This document shows, one piece after another, positions 4,930 through 19,564 of a stretch of 22,296 nucleotides of DNA. The notes under the pieces were generated by a model that saw nothing but the letters and a program-made list of their open reading frames with translations, made no database searches and was not told where the DNA came from. A program made the translations under genes and the position numbers. This stretch comes from a virus: positions 1 through 22,296 of IMG/VR virus record IMGVR_UViG_3300027974_000174, one strand, 5' to 3'. Numbering within the stretch: position 1 is the first letter of the stretch; every line of letters starts with the position of its first letter.

Positions 4930-7900
4930 ATGGCTAGGACTTCAGCTACAATTTCAGTAGGTGCAGATACAAGGCAGCTCGAAAGAGATATTCAGAGCGC
5001 GTTATCTCGTGATTTTAAATTCAAAGGATTTAATGAAAAAGCTTTTACTCAACCTTTAGGTAGAATTAGTGGCGCTGCTAATGAATTTCAAAAATCATTA
5101 GATGCATCAAATGCTCGTGTTATCGCATTCGGAGCCAGTGCGGGTTTAATATATACCGTAGAAAAAGCATTTACTTCATTGGTTAAAAGTACTATAGATG
5201 TTCAAAAATCATTAACTGATATTAATGTTATATTAAATGTTAGCGCAAAAACTTTAGATCAATTTGGAAATAGTTTATTTGATATCGCAAAGAATACAGG
5301 TCAAAGTTTTGATGTTGTTGCTCAAGCTGCTACTGAGCTTTCTCGTCAAGGCTTAGGATTAGAAGAAACTTTAAAAAGAACACAAGACGCATTAATATTG
5401 ACTCGTCTTAGTGGACTTGATACTGTAAGTGCTGTAGAAGCTTTAACTGCAACAATTAATAGCTTTAATAAAGCTGGATTAGATTCAACAATTATTATTA
5501 ATAAATTAGCGAATGTTGACGCTGCTTTTGCCGTTAGTAGTGGTGATCTTGCAGAAGCTATCAAACGAGTTGGATCATCTGCGTCAGATGCAGGAGTCGA
5601 TTTTGATGAATTATTAGCAATTGTTACTAGCGTTCAACAAACTACAGCTAGAGGTGGAGCGGTAATTGGTAACTCTTTAAAAACTATTTTCACAAGAATA
5701 CAAAGAACAGATACTCTTGATCAATTAGAAAATCTAGGAATTAAAGTTCGAGATTTACAAGGAAATACATTACCTGCAATTCAAGTTCTATCTAATCTTT
5801 CCAGTACGTTTAATAATTTAGCAGATTCACAAAAAGCTCAAGTTGCCGAAACTGTTGGTGGTATATTTCAAATTAATATTTTAAAAGCAGCTTTAGCAGA
5901 TTTAGGTAAAGAATATTCTGTTTACGACAGAGCATTGCAAACAGCAAATAATAGTACAGATCAAGCTATTCAAAGAAATGAAGCATTAAATCAAACTCTT
6001 TCAGCTTTAATTAATCAAACGTTTCAAAATTTAACTCGTATTTCTTCAAGTATTGGGGAAATAAGTTTAGGACCAACATTTAAAAATACTTTAGAATTAT
6101 TAAATAAAGGATTAGAATCCTTATCTACTGATAGCGATACTGTTGGTGGCAAAATTGGCAAAGGAATATTAGAAGGAATTGGAACATTTATAAGTGGTCC
6201 AGGAGTTATTTTAATAACAGCTGTATTTGGTAAATTATTATTAAATTTAGGGAAATTTGCTAGTCAATCTTTACAAACACTTTTAGCCGTAAATACTCAA
6301 GCAGAACAAAGAGTTCAAATTCAAGCTAAAATAAATGAAGTTCTTAGTCAAGAGCCAGGATTAGTCGCTGCTATATATAATAAACAAATTAGTGTTTTAG
6401 AATTAGAAAATAGAATTCTAGACGTAATCAGACTTCAAACATTAGAAAGAGAAAGAGCTGCGACCATATCAACTGCTGTCGCTGGTAATTTAGTTACGCG
6501 AGGAGTAACATCTAAAGGTGGATCATTAAAAGTAAAAAGTGCTGGTTTCGTTCCTAATTTTAGTGCTCAAGAAATCTATGGTGCATTAGCTGGAGGATAT
6601 ATGCCAGGAAATATTCGAAAAATGAATATTCCAGGTCAAGGAAACGTTACTTATAATAGCGCAGAAACAGTTAAGAATTTTCCAGGAATGACTCAACCAG
6701 CTATTATGCCACCTCAAGGCAGTAAGGCTGGAAAAAATTATCAAAAAGAATTTTCTAATGCTCATGGATTTAATCCTTACGCAAATGATGGATTTATTCC
6801 AAATTTTGTATTAGGAAGAGCAGACGCAGTTAGATTAGCTGCCCAAAATAACCAATTAAAAAGAATTCCAGGAACTAAAACTTTTCAATATGGTTTAGAT
6901 TCACAAGGAAAACCTTTAACTTTGTCTGAAGCTGAAAAAGACAATATTCTAAAAAGATCTGCAGCCGCAAAATCAACTAGAAAAGAATTAGATGTTAGTA
7001 ATATTGCTAGTATATTATTACCATTTATTGGGTCTTCGAGAATATTGCCTGGACCATTTTCACCAAAAGGTAAATCTGCAGAATTTGCAATTAAAAATGT
7101 TCCAGTCTATGGAATGAAAAAAAGCGCGATAGAAGGAGACACAGCTGATGATAAAGCTAAATTAGGCACAAGTATAACTAATAGCATTTTAGATAATACA
7201 AGTAATTTTATTGATACATTAAAACCTTTAGGAAAAAGCGTAACCAGAGGAACTTTAGCTGGAGAGTTTCAACGTTCTGGAGAAAAAGGCGCATATGGAG
7301 CAGTTCGTGGTGCAATTGGTTCTGCTTTTGAGGTTGGAATAAAAACAGCGCTAAAATATACTGGAGAAGATCAACTAAAGGGATTTGGAGATTTTGACGT
7401 TAGAGGAGGAAAAAATTTAAAGCATTTACAAACACTTTTTGGGTTTAGTACTTCTCTTGCTGATTTTAAAGGTGGATTATCTGAAGGTAATTTACAAAGT
7501 TTTGCAAATAAAATATATAAAGAAGAGGGTATGTTACAAATCAACAAAAAGGGGAGTACAGTTAAAAGCAGAAAAGCTTTTGGTGGATTTGTTCCTAATT
7601 TTACAGCATTAGATAATGCAATTGGAAGAGAAATTGCAGCGGGAACATCTAGTTCTAGAATAAGAGTCGGTAAAGATGCAAGATTAACATCTTCGGCAAA
7701 TCCACTTGGTTTGGGGGTCTATAATACAAAAGACGAACCCAAGGGTCTTGGTCAAGGTATTCAAAGATATGGATCAAAAGCTAAAATGGCAGGAGCAGCA
7801 GCTGGATTTATTCCTAATTTTGCAGGATTATCATTTAATCCTGGAGGTTTGGGCGCACTTGATCCAGCAGTTGCAAATAGAGAAGTTGGAGCGCAATTTG

Positions 7901-10900
7901 GAAAAATATTAGGAAAATTAAAAACTCAAGAAATAACAATTGATCAGGCTAATTTAAGTCTTAAAAAATTAAGTTCTACATATGGATTAGCTGCTGACAG
8001 TCAAAACAGATTTAATCAAATTCTTCAAAGTAGATCATCTCAATATGCAGCAAGTGCAAAAAATGCTACAATTGCAATAGATAATACAAAAAAAGGATTT
8101 GAAAAATTGAGTAGCGCGGGTTTAGCCTTGTCTTTAGTTTTGCCTATAGCTCTTCAAACGATAAGTCAATTTAACGAAGGAAATAAAAAACTACAAGTTG
8201 GTATAGATGCATTTAGTACATTTTTAAGTCTTACTGCTGCTGGAGCAACTTTAGGGCCATATGGAGCTGCTGGTGGTGCAATTGCTGGAGGTGGATTAGG
8301 TATATTTCAATATTTTAAGGGATTAGAAGGTATTAATCTTGAAAAACTTAAAAATGATATACAAAATCTTCAAGATGAATTTAATAATACTTCAACATCT
8401 GTAAATCAAATTTTACCATTGATTGAAAAATACAAAGAAGTTCAAGCCTCTGCTCTACCAGATAATAGTAAACTTGAAGCTTTAACTAATATTCAAAATC
8501 AAATTACTGATAACTTAGGCAAAATTGGTCCAGATTTTAGAGATGCAATAATTAATGCTATAAAAAATCAAAATTATGATGAAGTTGGGTTTATTATAAA
8601 TAAAGCATTAACTCAAAAATCTGCTCAATTATCAAATTTAGCTTCACAAGCTGTATTTGAAAGTATAAAAAATAAAACAATAGAAGATAAAAATGCCGCG
8701 GGAGGTATTTCAAAAGCTTTAACTGGACTACAAACTCCATCAGGAAAAAATATAATACAAGAATTAGCAACTCAACCAGGCGGTAAGGAAAAAATCTCAG
8801 CAGTATCTGAACAATTAGGTGGTTTATATACATTAAGAGGAACTTTAAAAGAGAAACAAGCTAAACAACAAAGTTTACTTAATGATCTTGCTGATGGCGT
8901 TGGAACTCTTTTTGGTGGAGATTCAGGCCTTGAATCACAACAATCTAAAAAAATAAGAGAAGAAATTGCGCAAAATTCAGTTTTGTTAAAAACAAATTTA
9001 CAAAATATTTTAGATAGCGTAGAACCTTTATATCAAGCTACAGACGAAACAAGAGCAGAATTTGAAAGATTAAGTAAAATAGCTCAAAGCGTTACTTTAA
9101 GCGAAGAAGCCGCAGATAAAGTAATCAAAGATACAAAACAATACTTAGACAATATTCGTGATACGCAAGAAAAAGTTGCAGCTTTATTAAAAAGTGGAAT
9201 TTCGACTGTTGATCAGTATATTCTTGCTTTTAAAAATGGAACATTAAATGCAAAAGATGCTCAAGAATTTTATAAAAATACGTTTGCATTACAAAATGAT
9301 CCATTAAAAATGTTAGGAAAATCTCAAAATGATCTTAATATGTCTGTTGCAACTACTATATTAAATGAAGATAGTAGAAATAAAGTAATGAAAGAATTAA
9401 CAATAGAAGAAGACAAACTAAGACAAAAATTAGCAAAAAGACAAATAACAGAGGATGATTATGCTAAAGCTCTTGAAGGTTTAAAAGATAAAATAATATT
9501 ACAGCAAAGACGCGATAATAAATTATTTGCAGAAGATTTTAGAGGCGGAAGACAAACTGCTAGAGAATCAAGATTATTAAGTAAAGAAGGCCCAAAACTA
9601 GAAGATTTTGCTGGCGCATTTTTTGATGAATTTGATAATAGCGCTGCTGATTCTTATCGCCAAGCTCAACTGGGCGCTAAAGATACCGCAAATACAATCA
9701 AAAGTGAATTTAATAATGCCTTCTTATCTTTTGCTAATGGAACAGCTACTGCTAGTGATGCATTTACAAAAATGGCCCTTAATGTTAGTGATAAAATACA
9801 ACAATTAGCTCTTGAATTTAGTACTAATCAAATTTTTGGAGCTCTCTTTGGTACGACTAGTAATATAGTTGGTGGTAATAGTGGAGGTGGAGGAATTGCA
9901 GATTTCTTTGGTTCATTATTAAAATCAAAAGGTGGCATGATAAAGGGATATTCTACTGGTGGAAATGTAGTTGGTGGATCAGGAAATAAGGATGATGTTC
10001 CAGCTATGTTGAGCGGTGGAGAATATGTTATAAGAAAGAGCGCTGTTAATAAATATGGCTCAGAATATTTGCAAATGTTAAATGAAGGAAAAGTTGAAAA
10101 ACGCTTTTTGGGAGGAGCGATGGGTTTAGCTATGGCAGGACTTGCTCAAAGCAATCCTTCTATGTTTCAAAATATAGCTCCAGTATTTGGTGTAAATCTA
10201 GGCAACAGCAAAAGAAGTAATAAAAATGTTTCTACCAACACTTCTCCAACTTCTAGCGTAGGCATGAGCACAAGACAGGGGGACAGAAGAGATAATTATT
10301 TTAAATACGGTGGAAGAGTTCAAAAATTTTTTGATGGTGGTAAACTTCAGACTTTCTTTAACTCAGTAGCTGTACCTAAAGCCATGAAAATGGTTATGCC
10401 GTATGCTGTTGAGGCTTTAAATCAAAAGAAATCAATGAATACCTCTAATACAAATACCTCTGCTAGCGCTTCTCCAGCGGCCATGAGCAGAAGTATGTAC
10501 AACAGAGAAAGTGATTATTTTAAATATGGTGGAGGAGTTCAAAGATTTGCTAGTGGTGGAGAAGCTCAATTTTTAGGAGCAAATAGTTATAGATACAATG
10601 ATCCTCTTTACCCAACCGCTGGTGAAAATGTTATTGACCCAAGGCTAAGTTTACAAGCTATTATTGATCCAAATAATCCTCAAAATAAAATTAGACAAGA
10701 AAGAGAGCAGAGCCTTTATGATTATTTAAATTATGTTGAAGGAGTTAGATTAGAAAACGAAAGAGCATTACAAGAAAATATAGCTTTAAACAAAAAAATT
10801 CAAGATGAATATAATCAACAAAAAAGAGCAAGAAGTAGAGGGGCATATATGAGTTTTGGTCTTGGTGTTGCAGGAGCAGCAGCAAGTCAATTCTCTTCAA

Positions 10901-11508
10901 TGGGAGGATTTAAAAGTATATTTGGCGCTGGATCTCCCTTGGGCTCTCAAGAGGTAAGAAGAGCTACCGCTGTAAATGATGTAAATTTAAGATCTGCTTA
11001 TGGTAGTAGCGCTTACACGCCTACTCAACCTACTCCATACTCTGGAGGAAGATTAAAATTAGGTAAAGCTAGCGGGGGATATATTCAAGGTTTTGCAAAT
11101 GGTGGCTCAAGTGGCAAAGATGATATTCCAGCTCTTTTGATGGGTGGAGAATTTGTAATGAGAAAAGAAGCAGTTAATATGTATGGCAAAAAATTCTTTG
11201 ATGATCTTAATTCTGGAAGAGCTAAAAAATTTGCAGACGGTGGACAAGTTGGTAGTATTGATGGAGCAGGTTCTAGCAGCTATTCTCCAACAAACAATGT
11301 CAGCGTTGTTGTTAACTTAAATCAAGAAGCTGCTCCAAATCAAAATACAAATGAAAATGTAAGTAATGTTAATGATGAAAAAAGAGCAGAAGCTCAAAGA
11401 ACGAAAGATTTGGCAGAAAGAGTAAAAGCTCAAGTAATCAGAGTAATTACCGAACAGCAAAGACCTGGCGGCCTACTAAGTTCAGCAGTTTACAAAAAAC
11501 AAAACTAA
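4930..11508 (+). CDS. Tail tape measure protein with embedded modules
   Basis: 2192 residues; sets tail length and probably travels through the tube into the host envelope. The N-terminal part (about 50-330) resembles the TP901-type tape measure core (KSLTDINVILNVSAKTLDQF, ELSRQGLGLEETLKRT, ARGGAVIGNSLKTIFTRIQ). Hydrophobic segments lie near 417-445, 1063-1080 and 1090-1125. Residues 539-964 hold four GF(V/I)PNF peptides and an insert with nuclease-like residues. Around 1594-1640 a segment (NAFLSFANGTATASDAF...) resembles the C-terminal region of lambda gpH-type tape measures. The last 500 residues carry repeated Gly-rich modules (DDVPA..L.GGE and FKYGG). The start is supported by AAAGGA at 4917-4922. 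At about 0.15 nm per residue, an upper estimate of tail length is 300 nm or more, less the inserted domains. Confidence 0.93.
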   Translation: MARTSATISVGADTRQLERDIQSALSRDFKFKGFNEKAFTQPLGRISGAANEFQKSLDASNARVIAFGASAGLIYTVEKAFTSLVKSTIDVQKSLTDINVILNVSAKTLDQFGNSLFDIAKNTGQSFDVVAQAATELSRQGLGLEETLKRTQDALILTRLSGLDTVSAVEALTATINSFNKAGLDSTIIINKLANVDAAFAVSSGDLAEAIKRVGSSASDAGVDFDELLAIVTSVQQTTARGGAVIGNSLKTIFTRIQRTDTLDQLENLGIKVRDLQGNTLPAIQVLSNLSSTFNNLADSQKAQVAETVGGIFQINILKAALADLGKEYSVYDRALQTANNSTDQAIQRNEALNQTLSALINQTFQNLTRISSSIGEISLGPTFKNTLELLNKGLESLSTDSDTVGGKIGKGILEGIGTFISGPGVILITAVFGKLLLNLGKFASQSLQTLLAVNTQAEQRVQIQAKINEVLSQEPGLVAAIYNKQISVLELENRILDVIRLQTLERERAATISTAVAGNLVTRGVTSKGGSLKVKSAGFVPNFSAQEIYGALAGGYMPGNIRKMNIPGQGNVTYNSAETVKNFPGMTQPAIMPPQGSKAGKNYQKEFSNAHGFNPYANDGFIPNFVLGRADAVRLAAQNNQLKRIPGTKTFQYGLDSQGKPLTLSEAEKDNILKRSAAAKSTRKELDVSNIASILLPFIGSSRILPGPFSPKGKSAEFAIKNVPVYGMKKSAIEGDTADDKAKLGTSITNSILDNTSNFIDTLKPLGKSVTRGTLAGEFQRSGEKGAYGAVRGAIGSAFEVGIKTALKYTGEDQLKGFGDFDVRGGKNLKHLQTLFGFSTSLADFKGGLSEGNLQSFANKIYKEEGMLQINKKGSTVKSRKAFGGFVPNFTALDNAIGREIAAGTSSSRIRVGKDARLTSSANPLGLGVYNTKDEPKGLGQGIQRYGSKAKMAGAAAGFIPNFAGLSFNPGGLGALDPAVANREVGAQFGKILGKLKTQEITIDQANLSLKKLSSTYGLAADSQNRFNQILQSRSSQYAASAKNATIAIDNTKKGFEKLSSAGLALSLVLPIALQTISQFNEGNKKLQVGIDAFSTFLSLTAAGATLGPYGAAGGAIAGGGLGIFQYFKGLEGINLEKLKNDIQNLQDEFNNTSTSVNQILPLIEKYKEVQASALPDNSKLEALTNIQNQITDNLGKIGPDFRDAIINAIKNQNYDEVGFIINKALTQKSAQLSNLASQAVFESIKNKTIEDKNAAGGISKALTGLQTPSGKNIIQELATQPGGKEKISAVSEQLGGLYTLRGTLKEKQAKQQSLLNDLADGVGTLFGGDSGLESQQSKKIREEIAQNSVLLKTNLQNILDSVEPLYQATDETRAEFERLSKIAQSVTLSEEAADKVIKDTKQYLDNIRDTQEKVAALLKSGISTVDQYILAFKNGTLNAKDAQEFYKNTFALQNDPLKMLGKSQNDLNMSVATTILNEDSRNKVMKELTIEEDKLRQKLAKRQITEDDYAKALEGLKDKIILQQRRDNKLFAEDFRGGRQTARESRLLSKEGPKLEDFAGAFFDEFDNSAADSYRQAQLGAKDTANTIKSEFNNAFLSFANGTATASDAFTKMALNVSDKIQQLALEFSTNQIFGALFGTTSNIVGGNSGGGGIADFFGSLLKSKGGMIKGYSTGGNVVGGSGNKDDVPAMLSGGEYVIRKSAVNKYGSEYLQMLNEGKVEKRFLGGAMGLAMAGLAQSNPSMFQNIAPVFGVNLGNSKRSNKNVSTNTSPTSSVGMSTRQGDRRDNYFKYGGRVQKFFDGGKLQTFFNSVAVPKAMKMVMPYAVEALNQKKSMNTSNTNTSASASPAAMSRSMYNRESDYFKYGGGVQRFASGGEAQFLGANSYRYNDPLYPTAGENVIDPRLSLQAIIDPNNPQNKIRQEREQSLYDYLNYVEGVRLENERALQENIALNKKIQDEYNQQKRARSRGAYMSFGLGVAGAAASQFSSMGGFKSIFGAGSPLGSQEVRRATAVNDVNLRSAYGSSAYTPTQPTPYSGGRLKLGKASGGYIQGFANGGSSGKDDIPALLMGGEFVMRKEAVNMYGKKFFDDLNSGRAKKFADGGQVGSIDGAGSSSYSPTNNVSVVVNLNQEAAPNQNTNENVSNVNDEKRAEAQRTKDLAERVKAQVIRVITEQQRPGGLLSSAVYKKQN
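6544..7821 (+). repeat. Four GF(V/I)PNF peptide repeats within the tape measure gene
   Basis: The hexapeptide GF-V/I-PNF is encoded at 6544-6561, 6790-6807, 7585-7602 and 7804-7821 (residues 539, 621, 886 and 959). It is usually preceded by a small residue or Gly and followed by a small residue. The spacings are unequal because different modules lie between the copies, so this is a linker-like peptide repeat rather than a simple tandem DNA repeat. From memory, such PNF peptides recur in large phage virion proteins; I could not verify this. Confidence 0.85.
6997..7527 (+). other. Possible PD-(D/E)XK nuclease-like domain inside the tape measure
   Basis: Approximate residues 690-866, between the second and third GFxPNF peptides. 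The segment has the residue pattern of a PD-(D/E)XK active site: a helix with Glu801 (GSAFEVGI), then Asp821/Asp823 in a strand-like GDFDVRGG, then Asp845-Phe-Lys847 in LADFKGG, followed by a helix rich in Gln/Asn/Lys. Cleavage of nucleic acid is an inference. The D-to-DxK distance of about 22 residues is on the long side, and no structure could be modelled here. Confidence 0.45.
9988..10038 (+). repeat. Tape measure C-terminal module DDVPA..LSGGE, copy 1
   Basis: Encodes KDDVPAMLSGGEYVIRK (residues 1687-1703), preceded by a Gly-rich run and followed by SAVNKYG. It matches copy 2 at 11116-11166 in 11 of 17 residues by eye. The motif is common near the C-termini of tape measure proteins. Confidence 0.8.
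10291..10341 (+). repeat. Tape measure FKYGG module, copy 1
   Basis: Encodes DNYFKYGGRVQKFFDGG (residues 1788-1804), preceded by a Ser/Thr/Asn-rich linker ending in an Arg-rich patch. The DNA is clearly similar to 10510-10560, and the linker before each copy is also alike (NTS-P-S...), suggesting an internal duplication. Confidence 0.8.
10510..10560 (+). repeat. Tape measure FKYGG module, copy 2
   Basis: Encodes SDYFKYGGGVQRFASGG, ending at residue 1877. Aligns without gaps to copy 1, differing mainly at R/G, K/R and FD/AS. Confidence 0.8.
11116..11166 (+). repeat. Tape measure C-terminal module DDIPA..LMGGE, copy 2
   Basis: Encodes KDDIPALLMGGEFVMRK (residues 2063-2079) followed by EAVNMYG. 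Second copy of the module at 9988-10038. Confidence 0.8.
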
Positions 11509-11526
11509 TTTATAGTATTAATTTTG
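11500..11526. terminator. Weak AT-only inverted repeat across the convergent stops (possible bidirectional terminator)
   Basis: CAAAACTAAT (11500-11509) pairs with ATTAATTTTG (11517-11526) with one mismatch, around a 7-base loop. It overlaps the tape-measure stop and the stop of the opposing gene. An A run on one side and a T run on the other would serve both directions, but the stem has only one G-C pair, so termination efficiency is doubtful. Confidence 0.3.
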
Positions 11527-12934
11527 CAGAGAAATTAATTAAGTCTTTATCTGATATAATTTGTGATTTATTAACAGAAGAATTTTCATTTAAGAATTCA
11601 TTTAAATTTTGTAAGTCATATGAATATTTGAATAATAATGTGATATAATCCTTGTTATCAATATTTGTCTTATATTTTTCACTATATTTCAGATTATTAC
11701 TAGTTTCTATATAGAACTTCTCATTGTTATAAAAAGTGGTTATATATTCAATATAAATATTACAAGTATCGCCATTTTCTTCGATTTCAATGATTTTGGC
11801 TTGAAGTACCCCTTGGTTTTGAAGGTAATCTAGATCAATAGCCACATCTTCATAAGAAGCTAAGTCTTTACCATAAAAACCTAAATATCCTTTTTGTAGG
11901 TTATAAGTATTATCAAGCACATCATCTGTATTTAAATCATTAGATAAGCATATAGTTTTGTTATCTTGATTTTTATTTAAAAGCGGAAAATAACTATTAA
12001 ATACCATATCATTAATTGATAAATCTGAGGTTAAACTATTTGAAGTTAAACTTTGATTATTGAATAGATATAAATAGTTTTGATAAAAGACTACGGTTTC
12101 ATTATTTACAGATTGCTTGTATATTTTGCCAATATTAAACGTTTGATTAGGGAAGTATTCCTCATATAGATTATTAATATCTTCTTGAGATTCTCTTGAT
12201 TTTAAAAAGTTATACAATTCGGATTGAAGATAATTAAGAGGAATAACTTTAATGTTTAAATTTTCAGATATCTCAACAATGTCACTTTCAATAAAAGGTA
12301 TTGTTAGTAGTGCTGTTGAATCATTTACGTCAAGCCATTTTTCTTCAACTTTTTCAGTAAATAGATTTGTTAACTTTTTGTTTTTAACTAATTTATTAGA
12401 AACTTCACTCAATACAAGCAATGAATAGACTTCTTGCTGTTTAAAGTATTCTTTATTTATAAGTAATTTCACAGTAAGATAATCACTACTGCGGTAAATT
12501 TTATTAAATAAAACATTTTTGTCTAAATTTTCAATTTCAGCATATTCCGCTTCTTGTTCAAAATCGCCTTTGCCATCGTTATTGTAATCTACTTCAAATT
12601 TTATTTTTTTAAAATAACCTAATTTGTTATTCAATTTTTTGTATTTAGAATAATTGTTTTCAAAATTATATTTAAATATATTTTTTGCTTGATTTTTTAA
12701 AAGATCGACTTTAAATTTAGTTTTCATTGTCCATCTTTGATCTACCGAATTATCCCAACCATAATTAACAATTATTTCGTAATCTTTTAAATTTAAATAT
12801 TGATCTATTAGATAATCATTTTCGTTCTTTACTTTAATATTATAGGATGGAAATTCTTGATCTACTTCTAGAAAATCAGGTATATTTCTTAATGTTAACC
12901 ATTCTAGTGTTAAATTTAAATTTTTAACTTTCAT
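11510..12934 (-). CDS. Unidentified protein downstream of the J homologue (possible tip or fibre accessory)
   Basis: 474 residues, very rich in Asn, Lys, Leu and Tyr. It starts 2 bases after the J stop without a Shine-Dalgarno, so it is the last cistron of the M-L-K-I-J operon. The sequence alternates strand-prone and helical stretches, with no signal peptide or membrane segment. At residues 116-124 DYNNDGKGD fits the DxNxDGxxD calcium-binding loop of dockerin/EF-hand-like sites; a single copy may be fortuitous. The N-terminal part (LTLEWLTLRNIPDFLEVDQE, and NYGWDNSVDQRW) and the C-terminal part (KYSYDLQNLNEFL) match no family I recognise. In lambda the genes after J encode side fibres or outer membrane proteins, so a tip or fibre accessory is a guess from context. 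Confidence 0.75.
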   Translation of the reverse strand: MKVKNLNLTLEWLTLRNIPDFLEVDQEFPSYNIKVKNENDYLIDQYLNLKDYEIIVNYGWDNSVDQRWTMKTKFKVDLLKNQAKNIFKYNFENNYSKYKKLNNKLGYFKKIKFEVDYNNDGKGDFEQEAEYAEIENLDKNVLFNKIYRSSDYLTVKLLINKEYFKQQEVYSLLVLSEVSNKLVKNKKLTNLFTEKVEEKWLDVNDSTALLTIPFIESDIVEISENLNIKVIPLNYLQSELYNFLKSRESQEDINNLYEEYFPNQTFNIGKIYKQSVNNETVVFYQNYLYLFNNQSLTSNSLTSDLSINDMVFNSYFPLLNKNQDNKTICLSNDLNTDDVLDNTYNLQKGYLGFYGKDLASYEDVAIDLDYLQNQGVLQAKIIEIEENGDTCNIYIEYITTFYNNEKFYIETSNNLKYSEKYKTNIDNKDYITLLFKYSYDLQNLNEFLNENSSVNKSQIISDKDLINFSAKLIL

Positions 12935-12936
12935 AA

Positions 12937-15900
12937 TTAATATATATTGCGTCCACTTGCTATTACGCTAAACACAGAAGCTTGAGCAGTTAAGTTGTAT
13001 GCTCCAGTAGCGGGCGTACTTCTTTCTCCAAAAGAATTTTCAGCGAATATTCTGAAAAAATAATTACCTGCACCAGTTGGCGTTAAGAATGGAGGTATTG
13101 TGCCCAATAACCAATTTGTTGGACTCATTCCTGTTTTTAAATTGTTTGGAGATATTACATCGTTCAAATATACTTCTGGAGTTTGAGTGGTGCTAGTAAA
13201 ATTACTAAATGGTTTAACGTAAACATAATATAGACTATTTGCAGAATTATCTGCTGGAGGTTGTATATTATACATGATGCTATTAATTCCACCTTGATTA
13301 GTTGTATAAATTGTTCCATTACAAGGACTAGTTGCACAATAAGAATCAGAAGAATTTCTAAATATACCGCTCAAGAATAAAGTAGGAGCAACTGGTAAAG
13401 CTGGTCGAACAGGCACATTAACAAGTGTTGCTACATTATCTATATTTGCATATTTTTGATCATTATACTCAAGAGCATTAATATTAAATAGTGATGGTTC
13501 TTTTTCTGATATATTTAGAATTCTATATTTTTTAGGCTTATTCAGATATGATTCTAAATAGTATCCTGGATATAAAGTGTTAGTTGGATTATTTATTTGA
13601 GACCTAGTATTAATTCCTTGAGTTGCGTATCCAGAGGTATTTATATCTATACTCCATACTGTATTTTGTGGAAAACTGTAACCACTAACTGTCAAGCGAT
13701 TTGGAAAATTAATTCTTATATTATTAGAGTATATTCCAGAGCCACTTGTTAAATAGTTTTGTGGATTGTTTATTGTAATTGATTGTAATTGGCTTCTTCT
13801 TAAGAACGAACTATTTAATCCTGTAACTCCAGAAGATGTAATATCAGAAAAACCAGTAGCATAAAGATCACCGAGTTGTGTTCCAAAATTTAAATTGTAA
13901 GTTGGAGTTAATACATTAAATATAAATGAATTATTTGCGTTAGCACCAGTGATTGCATATGTATTAGTAAAATTATAAGGAGTATCTAATATAGCGTATC
14001 CAGTAGTTAATTCCATCGTTCTTCCAGCGTAGGATTGATTCTTTCTATATTGATCATATATAAGTATAACATCTCCAGGTTTTATATAATTACCTTCTAA
14101 ACCAACTTGAAAGTCAACTAATTCGGTTTCAGTATTTTGAGTTGTTAAAAGCCATTTTCCTACTCTTCTGGCTTGATTTTGACTTGTGCACCCGAAGGCG
14201 ACAATTTCTGTTTCTCGTATTCCATATTTTAATATAGAAGTTTTATCTTCGATATATTCTATGGCTGGCTTGTAGTTATCATTTTGATCATTATATCTTA
14301 CAGAAGCAACTGTTTTTCTTGATTTTTTAGAAGCATCAGAATAATTAAATGAACCCTCAATAACATTACTATTGTTAAATAAATAAATTGGTTCCTTTAA
14401 AGAGTCTTGAGATAATGTAATTTGTCCAGCGGAATAATAAACTATAGCTCTAAATACACTAGCCATATCATTTAAAACTTTATAGGCTTCTTCTTTATTT
14501 GCCATGTAAAGATTGCATCTAAATCTTGGTTCTAATCCTCCAACTCCATCCGATACAAATTGATCGCAATATTGAGCGATTTCATATAAAGTCCATTTAT
14601 CTGTTAAACCTGCATCAATGAATTTTCCTAATCCAAATCTATTGTTAGTTATTAAATCATAAAAACACCAAGCTGGATTATCTGTCCATGCTACTTTAAA
14701 TTTTCCATTCCAAGAGCCAGTATATGTTCTCAATATTGGATCATAATTTACTGGAATTTTAACTTTTAATAATCTAACTTCATATGTTCTAGTGGGAATA
14801 TTATTAAAGTATCTTGCATCAAATTTTGATAAAACCATAGCTGTGTCTGGGTAAACAAATCTATCGCTATAAACTTCTGTTATGCTATCTATAGATGTTG
14901 AATTTGATAAACCTCCGCCAGCGCCTTCTCTTGTCATTTTAACTATGTCCATTGCCCATCCAATTTGATTAGGAAAAAGATCATACCAAGGAGAATTTTC
15001 AGAATAAGGTTTTAAAGTAAATTCATAAGTTATCATTGTTGGGCTATTAGCTACTTTACCTTGAATTCCAATATCATCTCTAGAATAATAATCACTAATA
15101 AATGGAAAATATTTAGATGTATCTAAAAGCACTAATTCTCCATTTGATAAAATTCTATAAATTATAAATCTTAATGTTAAATTTTGTTTTTCTACATCTC
15201 CTGCGTTTGACCCAGTTAATATTTGTTCATATAAACTATTAATTTTTACATTTATTTTTAAAGCTGAAATATCTGTATTATATATATAATACGTTTTAGG
15301 AGTTAGTACTTGATTGTTTCCACTTATCAAGTAAAAACCATATAAAGTATCACCATAACTTTTTGTAACAGATGTTTGAATTGGATATTTATTTATATCT
15401 ACTTTTCGTGCCCCATAATCTCTTCTTTCTTCATATAGATTGATATATGGATTGTATATAGTATGATCGTTAGTTTTTTCTCCATAAGTAAATCTATAAT
15501 TTGCGTATTGGAAATTATAAAATCCTGCTAAATCTGTTACTGGTACATCATCCCAAAAGATAGATCTTGTTTCTGGATTACTATAAGTTTGTTCAAATGG
15601 TTGAAAAATTGCACTATTATAACCTATATCTCCAGTAGTTTTACCGCTTGCATTGTAAACATAAATACCAGAAATAAATCCTTCTATTGGTCCTTCAGAA
15701 ATTAGATCTAATATATTTACTTGAGAAATAGAGTTGAAAGCTCTGCCATTTTTAAATCTTTCAGTTATAAATGTTCCATTATCTTGTCGTTGAGTTCCGT
15801 CTTCTACATTAATATTCGTATGAACTCCATAAATAGTTCTTAAATTTGGAGCATTATAATAAATAGGCCGAAAAACTGGACCACCTAGCCAATCTTGAAT

Positions 15901-16161
15901 TGGTCCACCAGTTATTGTTGCCATAACTGTATACCTACCAAAATAACCACTTGGACCTCTTAATGCTTGTTGAGGAGCAAGAGGGTCAGTATTAAAAGGT
16001 ATTCTAGAGCCACTAAAACTTAAAGATAAATTTCCTCCAGCCCCACCACCATCATCTTGAGCTGTGCTTTCTGGAAAATTATATCCGCATGTACCAAGAC
16101 CATGATTTCCAGGAAATAAAAGATAACTCAAACCGTCTGCATATTTATTTGCATTTGCCAT
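12937..16161 (-). CDS. J: Tail tip attachment protein, lambda gpJ-like (host specificity)
   Basis: 1074 residues, close to lambda J (1132). Forms the tip that contacts the host receptor. LDLISEGPIEGF at 151-162 is the characteristic gpJ motif and is followed by FWDDVPVTD and FYNFQYANYRF. The central region (about 460-700) has the gpJ hub signature: GSWNGKFKVAWTDNPAW, YDLITNNRFGLGKF, PRFRCN, AIVYYSAGQITLSQDS, FNYSD, RRVGKWLL and KPGDVILIYD. The C-terminal part (about 925-1065) has fibronectin-III-like strands (PALPVAPTLFLSG, YYVYVKPFSN, NYFFRIFAENSFGERS). The first 130 residues are a Gly/Pro-rich extension not typical of lambda J. It starts 3 bases after the I stop without a clear ribosome-binding site. 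Confidence 0.93.
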   Translation of the reverse strand: MANANKYADGLSYLLFPGNHGLGTCGYNFPESTAQDDGGGAGGNLSLSFSGSRIPFNTDPLAPQQALRGPSGYFGRYTVMATITGGPIQDWLGGPVFRPIYYNAPNLRTIYGVHTNINVEDGTQRQDNGTFITERFKNGRAFNSISQVNILDLISEGPIEGFISGIYVYNASGKTTGDIGYNSAIFQPFEQTYSNPETRSIFWDDVPVTDLAGFYNFQYANYRFTYGEKTNDHTIYNPYINLYEERRDYGARKVDINKYPIQTSVTKSYGDTLYGFYLISGNNQVLTPKTYYIYNTDISALKINVKINSLYEQILTGSNAGDVEKQNLTLRFIIYRILSNGELVLLDTSKYFPFISDYYSRDDIGIQGKVANSPTMITYEFTLKPYSENSPWYDLFPNQIGWAMDIVKMTREGAGGGLSNSTSIDSITEVYSDRFVYPDTAMVLSKFDARYFNNIPTRTYEVRLLKVKIPVNYDPILRTYTGSWNGKFKVAWTDNPAWCFYDLITNNRFGLGKFIDAGLTDKWTLYEIAQYCDQFVSDGVGGLEPRFRCNLYMANKEEAYKVLNDMASVFRAIVYYSAGQITLSQDSLKEPIYLFNNSNVIEGSFNYSDASKKSRKTVASVRYNDQNDNYKPAIEYIEDKTSILKYGIRETEIVAFGCTSQNQARRVGKWLLTTQNTETELVDFQVGLEGNYIKPGDVILIYDQYRKNQSYAGRTMELTTGYAILDTPYNFTNTYAITGANANNSFIFNVLTPTYNLNFGTQLGDLYATGFSDITSSGVTGLNSSFLRRSQLQSITINNPQNYLTSGSGIYSNNIRINFPNRLTVSGYSFPQNTVWSIDINTSGYATQGINTRSQINNPTNTLYPGYYLESYLNKPKKYRILNISEKEPSLFNINALEYNDQKYANIDNVATLVNVPVRPALPVAPTLFLSGIFRNSSDSYCATSPCNGTIYTTNQGGINSIMYNIQPPADNSANSLYYVYVKPFSNFTSTTQTPEVYLNDVISPNNLKTGMSPTNWLLGTIPPFLTPTGAGNYFFRIFAENSFGERSTPATGAYNLTAQASVFSVIASGRNIY

Positions 16162-16164
16162 AAA

Positions 16165-16929
16165 TTAAAATGGTAATGAACTCAATGGAGTTTGTTCTTG
16201 AAATTGACATTTACTGTTAAATAAATATTGACTATCTCCTTGATTCTCTACTTGTAGGGTAGCATCTGAAAAATCAGAAGTATAAGCTCTATATATAATA
16301 TCATAATTGCTGAATACATTATTCCCACCAACTAGAAGTTGTCCATAGCCCACTGGAACTGGCCCACCTTCTCCTACTGTATTAACTGGACCATTAAAAA
16401 GATAAGATACAGCTCCACCAGCTTGCCCTTGACCATCTATTGGATTAGTTTGTTGAGCGGTAAATGGAACACTTGGCGGTGGTTTAGAAAGTAGTTCGCT
16501 TGTTCCAGCTGCAATTAAACCTAATCCAGCAAAACCTAAAGATACTGCTGGTAAAAGAAATGGAGTAAATACTCCTAATGCTACAGCTCCAATTATAGCA
16601 CCTGCTCCTAGAGCAATTTTACCAAATCCACCAGAGCCTATAATAGATGGAACAATATCTATTGTTTTTATTTTATCTTTAATATTTAAGCAAAATTCAG
16701 AGTTTTTTAATTCATCTATATTTTTATAATCTGGAGTTTCATTGAAAAGATTATTTTGATCAACTAAAATTTCATATTCATATTCGTCCTTATAAGTTAT
16801 AAGCCATTGTCTTAATTTTTTAGTATTTATATCTATAGCGTGTAAAGCTTCTGAAACTGATGAAACATCTAATTCCCATGTTTCACCTAAATCTTGACCT
16901 AATTTACCATGTAAGTTTACTGTTATCAT
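16165..16929 (-). CDS. I: Tail assembly protein, lambda gpI-like
   Basis: 254 residues (lambda I is 223). Needed for assembly of the lambda tail tip; acts with K and J and is not known as a major virion component. The N-terminal 90 residues look like a ubiquitin-like beta-grasp fold (ITVNLHGKLGQDLGETWELD...SEALHAI). A hydrophobic Gly/Ala-rich segment at about 105-143 may insert in a membrane or be buried. The C-terminal part has the family signature SYLFNGPVNTVGEGGPVPVG (175-194) followed by YGQLLVGG. The ATG overlaps the TGA of the K homologue (ATGA), a coupling expected for the K-I pair. The order K-I-J matches lambda. Confidence 0.9.
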   Translation of the reverse strand: MITVNLHGKLGQDLGETWELDVSSVSEALHAIDINTKKLRQWLITYKDEYEYEILVDQNNLFNETPDYKNIDELKNSEFCLNIKDKIKTIDIVPSIIGSGGFGKIALGAGAIIGAVALGVFTPFLLPAVSLGFAGLGLIAAGTSELLSKPPPSVPFTAQQTNPIDGQGQAGGAVSYLFNGPVNTVGEGGPVPVGYGQLLVGGNNVFSNYDIIYRAYTSDFSDATLQVENQGDSQYLFNSKCQFQEQTPLSSLPF

Positions 16930-17648
16930 TTTTTAAACCTAAATATTGAATCTGTATGCCTTTTATAAAAATTACAATAATTTTCAATTTTTGAGAAACC
17001 AAACATCGGTTGATGTAATATCTTGTCATTTCCAAGATAAAGGGCGAAATGTTTTGGTTTATTTTCTCCAAAAGCATCGATTAGTAGTATATCATGCAAT
17101 TCCAAAGGGTTTTTATGATCTATAAGTTCAAAATTATTATTTGTATATAATTTATAAACTTCACTTTTAATATCCATTTGTTGCAATGATTTTGAATAAA
17201 ATTCTTGATTATATTTAAGTTCTATAGATTTTTCTTTTTTATAAAATTCTTCTATCAATTTAAAACAGTCATACTTTCCATGTTCATAAAATCTTCCGAT
17301 ATATTCTTTTTTAGTATTAACTGGTTCATATACTTTAATAATATCATTTTTTATACTATATAATATAATTGGTAAGTTGAGATTATCAGAGCAATTTGTA
17401 TCTGTTTCACTAAAATTTTCATTATCGTTCGTATGACTATGATAAATATAAAATATATTATAATTTTTTTTAATTTCTAAAAATCTTTTAGAAGAAATTT
17501 TAAAATGCTCTTTAGGATTATCTGAAATATTTTCGCATGGAATACATTCAAAATTCTTATTATTTTCTACTATAAATCCACAAGCTTCATTTGGATAATC
17601 TTTTAAAGATTGATTGCGGATAAAGTTTTTTAATTTTTTATCAATCAT
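16926..17648 (-). CDS. K: Tail tip peptidase/hydrolase, lambda gpK-like (JAB/MPN plus NlpC/P60)
   Basis: 240 residues from the ATG at 17648-17646, one base after the L stop (TAA-A-ATG). An in-frame ATG at 17690 would add 14 residues, but it lies inside L and has no ribosome-binding site. The N-terminal JAB/MPN domain has the full JAMM zinc motif: Glu21, His70-Ser-His72, Ser80 and Asp83 (HxH-x7-S-x2-D). The C-terminal NlpC/P60 domain has Cys128 in KYDCFKL, His200 in PKHFALYLG, and a following ILHQP. Both halves therefore look catalytically intact: an isopeptidase-like metalloprotease and a cell-wall or amide hydrolase, likely acting during tip assembly or envelope entry as in gpK-type proteins. 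Its stop overlaps the I start. Confidence 0.93.
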   Translation of the reverse strand: MIDKKLKNFIRNQSLKDYPNEACGFIVENNKNFECIPCENISDNPKEHFKISSKRFLEIKKNYNIFYIYHSHTNDNENFSETDTNCSDNLNLPIILYSIKNDIIKVYEPVNTKKEYIGRFYEHGKYDCFKLIEEFYKKEKSIELKYNQEFYSKSLQQMDIKSEVYKLYTNNNFELIDHKNPLELHDILLIDAFGENKPKHFALYLGNDKILHQPMFGFSKIENYCNFYKRHTDSIFRFKK

Positions 17649-17649
17649 T

Positions 17650-19017
17650 TTAATTTTGTTGGGGTTTATTTGTGCCTGGAAAACCACCAAACGGAAGAAA
17701 ACCGTTTAGATAATTTCCATCTTTGTCTTTTGGAATTCCATGGGCTCGTGGTGAAGAAGGATCTTCGCATCCAGGTCTTCTTGGAAAATAAACTGGAGAA
17801 CCATTAATTCCTGTTACCCAAAGAGATCTTGCTCCGCTAGCAACTATGCCTTCTATTCTTCTTCTAGTTTCATCAAAAGTTTCTCCACCTCTGTTAGTTG
17901 GCCAAATGACAGGTCTAAAAGCTGGATTTTTCAACCATCTTAATCTACATGCATTTAAACTTTTAGAGCAAGAATCTGATGCCCAATAAGTTGTATTAGG
18001 AGGAGCATTAAATTGATCTGCAGTATTATTATTTATACAAACATAATAAAATTTTAACCCTCTATTTTGAAGATAAACAAAATCACCAGAAACATAATTT
18101 GCACTTTCTAACCATACTCCAGAATTGCCAAGAGTACCAGTTAATCTAAATATAGCAGTATTTGTAGATGTTCCAGCTATTCCAGTAGCAAAAACTCCTC
18201 CAACAAATAATTGATCATTATCTGTAGCTACAGGAGGAGCTCTCAAAAGACCTTGAACACTAATAGGAGAATTAACTGTATTAGCGTAAATTCCACTATG
18301 CAAATAAGTTAATCTACTATCGTATTCATAAATACATCCTTCTCCTCTATATTGAAATGGACATTTTTTGGCATAAATTGTTCTAGCTGGAAGAGTTAAA
18401 TTTTCTATATCAAGAATTGTATTTAATTGATACTCAATTACATTGTTACTTTCTAGGGTTTTTCTATCTATATAATAAATATCTCTTGGTAATTCTACTT
18501 CATATAAACCAGTATTTGGATTATATGGATTATATCTACCAGAAAAATTTGCGCCATCTAGATATTTTAAGAATGTTTTGATTCTAGTAAATTTTGCACC
18601 AACGATGTCTCCTAAACTTTGCATTTGCATTCTAATATATCTATAAAAGGAATTAGAAGAATTATCTGGAGAAAGATTAGATATTGAAATTTTTGGAGTT
18701 GGTAATGTTCCTGCAGAAGAATATTCAAATCCTTCAGCAAAAATTGGAAATGGATAATAGAAATTATTTTGCCATTTTATTGTTCCATATGGATTATCTA
18801 CAATATTAAATACATTGTAATCATTATAAACTCTAAAAATACCATTATTAATTGGTTGTTGTCCATCGTAATTGTAATTGATCATTGTTGGAGCAATTTC
18901 TGACAAATCAATTTCGTATAAAATAACTTGTGTGGATGGAGTTAAAGAACTTATTTCAGTATTTAAGGATTGATTACCGCTTACTATTAAATTATAAACT
19001 TCAGATGATGTAGGCAT
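17650..19017 (-). CDS. L: Minor tail protein, lambda gpL-like, with Fe-S cysteines and a long insertion
   Basis: 455 residues, about twice lambda L (232). Joins the distal tube to the tip. The N-terminal 215 residues match the L-type domain (ILYEIDLSEIAP, ANFSGRYNPYNPN, LPRDIYYIDRKTLESNNVIE, EYQLNTILDIENLTLPARTI). The cysteines known to bind an Fe-S cluster in gpL are present as Cys219 and Cys228 (KCPFQYRGEGC) and Cys350 and Cys357 (DSCSKSLNAC), and the family ending FGGFPG is at 443-448. Two insertions are unusual: 120 residues between the second and third cysteines, containing a Trp/Tyr-rich module at 302-345, and 80 residues before FGGFPG. It starts 4 bases after the M stop. Confidence 0.92.
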   Translation of the reverse strand: MPTSSEVYNLIVSGNQSLNTEISSLTPSTQVILYEIDLSEIAPTMINYNYDGQQPINNGIFRVYNDYNVFNIVDNPYGTIKWQNNFYYPFPIFAEGFEYSSAGTLPTPKISISNLSPDNSSNSFYRYIRMQMQSLGDIVGAKFTRIKTFLKYLDGANFSGRYNPYNPNTGLYEVELPRDIYYIDRKTLESNNVIEYQLNTILDIENLTLPARTIYAKKCPFQYRGEGCIYEYDSRLTYLHSGIYANTVNSPISVQGLLRAPPVATDNDQLFVGGVFATGIAGTSTNTAIFRLTGTLGNSGVWLESANYVSGDFVYLQNRGLKFYYVCINNNTADQFNAPPNTTYWASDSCSKSLNACRLRWLKNPAFRPVIWPTNRGGETFDETRRRIEGIVASGARSLWVTGINGSPVYFPRRPGCEDPSSPRAHGIPKDKDGNYLNGFLPFGGFPGTNKPQQN

Positions 19018-19021
19018 AATT

Positions 19022-19564
19022 TTATGCTGGTACTTCTATGAATGTAGCTTCTATAGAGTAATTATTATAAGATATATAAGTTGGAGACCATTCTGGACAA
19101 ACAAATTCTGTATTTAAATTAGTATTTGATTTAGCGTATATAGTTGGAAGATTATAAATAAAAGCTTGTTGAGCATTTCTTGCGTTTAAGAAATGCAAAA
19201 TAGATACCGCTTCTATTTCACTTCTATTATCGAAATTTAAAGTTAATTCTATTAAATTATTATTTATTCCATCATTTACTCTTTGTTCGTATCCATTCCC
19301 AAATCTATTGATTTTAATTCTTGGTTTTAAATTTATTTTAGCATTGTATGATGGTTTCCACCAAAAATCAGGCACGAGAGTTCCATTTAAAGAAACATAT
19401 CCATCCCAAGACACTCCTAAATTAGAAGGCGTAATTGGATTATTTCCAATGTTAGAATCGATTACAGAATAATAATATCTACCGTCGCTACCTAGCGCTA
19501 TACTATACTTATTATAAGTAGTACTCCCGCTCCAAGCTGGAACTGTATCGTAAATACTTGCCAT
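19022..19564 (-). CDS. M: Minor tail protein, lambda gpM-like, with N-terminal aromatic module
   Basis: 180 residues (lambda M is 109). Distal tail protein that joins tube and tip. The C-terminal 115 residues carry the M family signature: FWWKP near 67-71, INRFGNGYEQRVNDGINN (FGNGYEQR at 88-95), a LTLNFDNRSEIEAVSILHFL helix, the QQAFIYNLP strand and EFVCPEWSPTY. The first 55 residues are extra and look like a short carbohydrate-binding repeat: Trp11, Tyr17, a DGRYYYS strand, two prolines (43 and 46) and Trp53. It is first in the minus-strand operon and has the best ribosome-binding site in the window (AGGAGG). Confidence 0.92.
   Translation of the reverse strand: MASIYDTVPAWSGSTTYNKYSIALGSDGRYYYSVIDSNIGNNPITPSNLGVSWDGYVSLNGTLVPDFWWKPSYNAKINLKPRIKINRFGNGYEQRVNDGINNNLIELTLNFDNRSEIEAVSILHFLNARNAQQAFIYNLPTIYAKSNTNLNTEFVCPEWSPTYISYNNYSIEATFIEVPA

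Follow-up and report, generated by a model that had tools for sequence, protein, structure and literature searches.

The usual view of phage tape measure proteins (TMPs) is that they measure tail length and conduct DNA. Examples of TMPs that carry enzymatic motifs are already known, as is a TMP-related effector with a nuclease. In the first case, the TMP of mycobacteriophage TM4 contains a peptidoglycan hydrolase motif that is dispensable for viability (PMC1796659). In the second, the tapemeasure-related effector Tme of the Streptomyces davawensis contractile injection system carries an EndA-like nuclease (PMC11126660). Pne1 is cited as a nuclease effector belonging to the MAC injection system (PMC6748791, PMC11126660), and polyvalent proteins are summarised as large effectors of several domains, ART and GNAT among them, that phages inject along with their DNA (PMC7824862). 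In phage lambda, the TMP is located at the inner membrane while the genome is being injected (PMC13190303).

We describe a nuclease-like domain inside the TMP encoded by the window, which is the whole 22,296-base virus record analysed, from an uncultured phage. The arrangement resembles Tme in that a TMP-related protein carries an endonuclease domain, here a putative one (PMC11126660), but Tme belongs to a bacterial injection system and its EndA-like nuclease, with a DRGH motif, is C-terminal, whereas the present module sits in the interior of a phage TMP (a slot at residues 683–868 of 2192) and has the residue pattern E/D/(D/E)xK rather than DRGH or H-N-N. With TM4 it shares an enzymatic motif within a phage TMP (PMC1796659), although the TM4 motif targets peptidoglycan and not nucleic acid, and the array of GFIPNF-bounded modules described below is not reported for TM4. 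The comparison with Pne1 is that of a nuclease delivered by a tail-like particle, but Pne1 is a separate effector and not a domain of a TMP; polyvalent proteins are similar in their ART/GNAT multidomain make-up and differ in that the modules considered here belong to the TMP itself. In the literature searched, where subscription papers were mostly missing, neither a phage TMP with an internal nuclease slot nor the GFIPNF motif nor a thermonuclease in a TMP was found.

The tape measure gene and its nuclease-like domain

The 2192-residue open reading frame at 4930..11508 (plus strand) is a TMP of the TP901 type, as had been proposed from the sequence before any database search: it matches NCBIfam TIGR01760 (tape_meas_TP901, 4.8e-33), Pfam PF10145 (4.7e-29) and a number of tape measure PHROGs, and this very long tail gene has the TP901/PhageMin_Tail domain at its N-terminus (residues 79–396, 5164..6117, plus strand, from the TIGR01760 match). 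The N-terminus is also the sole part of the protein with a match among GenBank phages, at ~30% identity. A motif, KDD(V/I)PA(M/L)L.GGE(Y/F)V.RK.AV..YG, recurs in the C-terminal third, between 10 kb and 11.3 kb. Lambda-like tail tip genes lie within 11510-19564 and, unlike the TMP gene, are encoded on the minus strand: a J-like gene (12937-16161), a JAB/NlpC-P60 gene (16926-17690) and an L-like gene (17650-19017).

The earlier note had marked 6997-7527, which are residues 690–866, as a PD-(D/E)XK nuclease-like insert in this protein and had named E801, D821, D823, D845 and K847, all of which are at the positions given. The region was confirmed, with a start somewhat upstream, at residue ~683, so that the domain covers residues ~683–868 (6976..7533, plus strand). 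Close homologues were found on 13 IMG/VR contigs. Neither the domain nor its flanking GFIPNF modules had a homologue in GenBank phages, a query of the genome collection with the domain returned no match, and across 395 cellular genomes of the class of G009 no homologue was present except in a phage-type locus of G009 itself. With the TMP N-terminus as bait, 80 related TMP loci were collected, and an iterated profile located the domain at the same place in 78 of them; the other two are a truncated locus (L064) and one with another module (L114). The domain was also detected in held-out TMPs from later scans and in a Flavobacteriales MAG, on a contig that encodes a TMP. Overall, iterated profile searches found its core at E<0.01 in 86/91 distinct TMPs of uncultured phages that extend as far as the slot.

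Conservation in homologues had been set beforehand as a test of the proposed site, and its outcome did not refute the proposal. Residues were counted over 70 domains less than 80% identical to one another. The GSAFE motif (7318..7332, plus strand), in an alpha helix (113–132 of the model described below), has G797 in 70/70 domains and F800 and E801 each in 69/70. D823 (7396..7398, plus strand), which opens a short strand, is D in 67/68 and E in the remaining one. The (D/E)xK motif D845-F-K847 (7462..7470, plus strand; model strand 168–171) is acidic at residue 845 without exception (D in 55 and E in 13 of the 68) and has K847 in 68/68. F837 is kept in 64/68, and K861 (7510..7512, plus strand), in the last helix, in 68/68. 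Four of the five residues first named are thus near-invariant; D821, with D in 15/68 domains, falls outside the site, to which K861 is to be added. Alignment A5, made of 58 sequences with a mean column identity of 19%, has invariant columns at G797, F800, E801, F837, K847 and K861 and keeps D823 in at least 90%. The pattern also held in held-out members, which were retrieved through the TMP N-terminus and were absent from profile building (E801 in 20/20; D823, D/E845 and K847 in 18/18 where aligned). Because conservation extends across 70 diverse domains, the motif is more than a chance resemblance. In its order of E (in a helix), D and (D/E)xK, and in the exchange of D for E at the third acid, the conserved residue set matches the signature of PD-(D/E)XK-type enzymes at the sequence level.

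AlphaFold2 run on alignment A5 predicted a compact alpha/beta domain (pLDDT 87.6, pTM 0.79), which agrees with the initial impression that this part of the protein does not look like a tape measure rod; a shallow alignment of 9 close sequences gave a pLDDT of 37. In the model, E801 belongs to a long helix, D823 lies at a short strand, the D845-F-K847 triplet is part of another strand and K861 falls within the last helix. For comparison with the alpha-beta-beta-beta-alpha-beta core of the PD-(D/E)XK superfamily, the modelled elements run helix(E)-strand(D)-helix-strand(DxK)-helix after a set of N-terminal strands. The succession of a helix with E, then D, then (D/E)xK and then a helix is shared with PD-(D/E)XK nucleases, and the dipeptide 'FE' is as in Mrr_cat (PF04471), a family of that class; the domain differs from Mrr_cat in having an extra N-terminal beta unit and, in the model, no C-terminal strand, and in giving neither a fold nor a profile match to it. 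With the confident model as query, Foldseek returned nothing significant (best E 2.1 in PDB and 0.23 in BFVD), and none of the hits was a nuclease of the PD-(D/E)XK class. Pfam, PHROG, NCBIfam and PADLOC did not match the domain, PDB sequence searches with alignments A3 and A5 returned spurious matches only (e.g. plant lectins), and hhalign of the domain against Mrr_cat, the sole family compared (VRR_NUC had too few members and was set aside), scored at the level of shuffled or reversed controls. Because of the missing Foldseek match and the control-level hhalign result, we do not file the domain as a PD-(D/E)XK member. The original interpretation is partly supported: the residue signature holds and, as shown below, the slot of two relatives contains a recognisable nuclease, but the PD-(D/E)XK fold is not confirmed. 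We regard the domain as a PD-(D/E)XK-like nuclease module whose fold is unproven, a claim that it may work like a nuclease and not that it belongs to the superfamily.

The GFIPNF array and the occupants of its slot

The domain is one of several modules delimited by copies of a short motif with the consensus [AK][SA]xGF[IV]PNFA. In the window's TMP a motif scan located four (all plus strand): GFVPNF at residue 539 (6544..6561), GFIPNF at residue 621 (6790..6807), where the slot starts, GFVPNF at residue 886 (7585..7602), where it ends, and GFIPNF at residue 959 (7804..7821). Throughout this TMP family the motif recurs at module boundaries (6544-7821 in the window; L046–L282 among relatives), where it may act as a cleavage site, a linker, or a contact for a chaperone or the tube, with 319 sites in 84 TMPs versus 17 in 837 other open reading frames, and a looser form occurs at 354 sites versus 2.65 expected in shuffled TMPs. 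Four copies are typical of these TMPs, and in larger relatives additional copies enclose extra modules. A Kyte-Doolittle scan over 19 residues gave only two strongly hydrophobic peaks in the window's TMP, one upstream of the array (residues 416–434, 6175..6231, plus strand) and one downstream (residues 1060–1078, 8107..8163, plus strand), so that the array lies between them. Over 79 TMPs, such peaks were found upstream of the array in 72, downstream in 54 and within it in 3.

The five TMPs of the 91 that lack the domain in the slot (L229, L245, L114, L277 and L261) were examined for what takes its place. In L229 and L245 the slot holds a staphylococcal-nuclease (SNase) homologue, with E-values to solved thermonucleases of 9.7e-5 and 5.1e-6, respectively; Pfam gave no match on the L229 module. 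Inspection of the alignment by eye showed that DGDT is kept, together with the Arg residues of YRL and YGRGL and both acids (D and E) of VDAAE, which we take to be the SNase catalytic residues. The SNase homologues are unrelated in sequence to the window's domain, and the equivalence would be functional, not evolutionary. In L114 and the near-identical L173, a 389-residue slot module without a match in any family library searched has the sequence GAKYEDF...TDVDAV...FFEFK, a nuclease-like E..DVD..EFK pattern. Used as single-protein queries, the SNase and L114 modules retrieved no phages beyond the same or near-identical ones. L277 has a slot module without family assignment, and the slot of L261 is empty; the module is therefore dispensable for the ruler. 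Replacement by an unrelated nuclease, known from two related TMPs, is the best functional clue and supports a nuclease function for the usual occupant.

These observations bear on what the domain may do. It could be a structural or nucleic-acid-binding domain without catalysis, in which the charged residues serve folding or binding. The failure of Foldseek to find a nuclease fold is in keeping with this, and compact spacer domains may be needed in a tail protein; at a mean column identity of 19%, however, the polar positions that are kept are precisely the E/D/(D/E)xK/K set with its D/E exchange, and the slot of two TMPs holds an SNase with its usual catalytic residues kept by eye. We consider a non-catalytic role unlikely. 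The 'degenerate DNA-binding fold' that the earlier note offered as an alternative to a nuclease is disfavoured as well, because the putative catalytic residues are invariant. A catalytic domain might instead act on the phage's own DNA, for example in end trimming or nicking at packaging or ejection, rather than as an anti-host weapon. Its presence in 86/91 TMPs suggests a core function more than a variable effector, and the TMP has phage DNA next to it both within the tail and at the membrane (PMC13190303), but a specific processing step fits poorly with replacement by an unrelated SNase, an enzyme type that is usually non-specific, and with the absence of the module from L261, and the other slots of the array are filled with kinds of enzyme that are known from effectors directed at the host. 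Self-directed processing thus seems rather improbable. A different metal-dependent enzyme with an E/D/DxK site, such as a nucleotide or phosphodiester hydrolase, would suit a fold without match and the nucleotidyltransferase and P-loop modules of relatives; we rate it as quite unlikely, given that the same slot holds an SNase and that the L114 module, with E..DVD..EFK, is also nuclease-like. A selfish homing endonuclease or intein-like insertion would be a nuclease-like element within a large gene, as seen here, but is hardly credible for a fixed element found in the same slot of almost all family members, bounded by GFIPNF motifs that also flank unrelated modules, in a continuous open reading frame.

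A proposed delivery with the tail

The reading we favour, with reasonable though far from full confidence, is that of a metal-dependent nuclease-type module (E801, D823, D/E845-x-K847 and K861) that resides in a nuclease slot of the TMP and is delivered to the host. The module would probably be delivered together with the TMP. During infection the TMP would leave the tail, and its hydrophobic segments would insert into the host inner membrane, a step in line with phage lambda (PMC13190303). The string of modules would be left on one side of the membrane, and the nuclease could then act on nucleic acid, that of the host or of competitors, within the envelope or cytoplasm of the cell. These phages may in this way inject a nuclease into the host along with their DNA. 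We infer catalysis, substrate, metal use and delivery, and likewise the sparing of the phage's own DNA; a nuclease beside the incoming phage DNA would need a protection mechanism, which speaks against the favoured reading.

More tentatively, with the chances falling a little short of even, a whole family of siphophage TMPs may have a dedicated nuclease slot with interchangeable nuclease families, an effector array delimited by GFIPNF motifs and two membrane segments, the ruler doubling as an injected multi-effector. If so, the tail-length protein itself would bring a nuclease into the cell, joined in relatives by further enzymes; how host takeover begins, or how competing DNA is attacked, would become directly testable; phage tape measures would be linked to effector-loaded contractile injection systems; and the domain would represent a nuclease family absent from every library used here.

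Further modules in related tape measures

The TMPs of relatives contain additional enzyme-like modules. In L125, residues 1022–1207 match a GNAT acetyltransferase (Pfam 1.5e-4) and residues 1207–1384 form a P-loop module; a P-loop motif with a cytidyltransferase-related region (HIGH_NTase1_ass 3.3e-8) was seen in L224/L246 (residues 1057–1484). Residues 954–1530 of L168 gave GHKL-type ATPase matches below the curated cut-off (3.8e-5 and 6.5e-5, the latter HATPase_c), followed by a HEAAH zinc-peptidase-like motif, and residues 1494–2139 of L114 a PcfJ-like domain (Pfam 1.8e-6). ART-like modules (LYRGV..., STS...) were recognized by eye, with no Pfam match, in L121 (residues 1223–1464) and L172 (residues 1299–1525), and P-loop and HExxH-type modules were also spotted by eye in the arrays.

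Several TMPs (L116, L121, L125, L213 and L279) have two copies of the nuclease-like core. The order of beta-rich parts had raised the suspicion of a circular permutation between main and second copies in L116, L121 and L125, which we do not claim, as a profile of the N-terminal beta unit failed to locate that unit after the second copies. A common second module with KFE(E/Q/N)E...KKGSDF...LQLKL is present in L245 (residues 830–1075), L229 (residues 873–1118) and L224 (residues 1484–1725), and is possibly another nuclease-like pattern, with Q replacing D/E. A module with the sequence APLVRA(I/V)DDKEL(K/R)MMLSKFGKG..., with a GFIPNF motif of its own, is common to the distant TMPs L047 (residues 622–783), L121 (residues 1464–1615) and L279 (residues 1120–1327).
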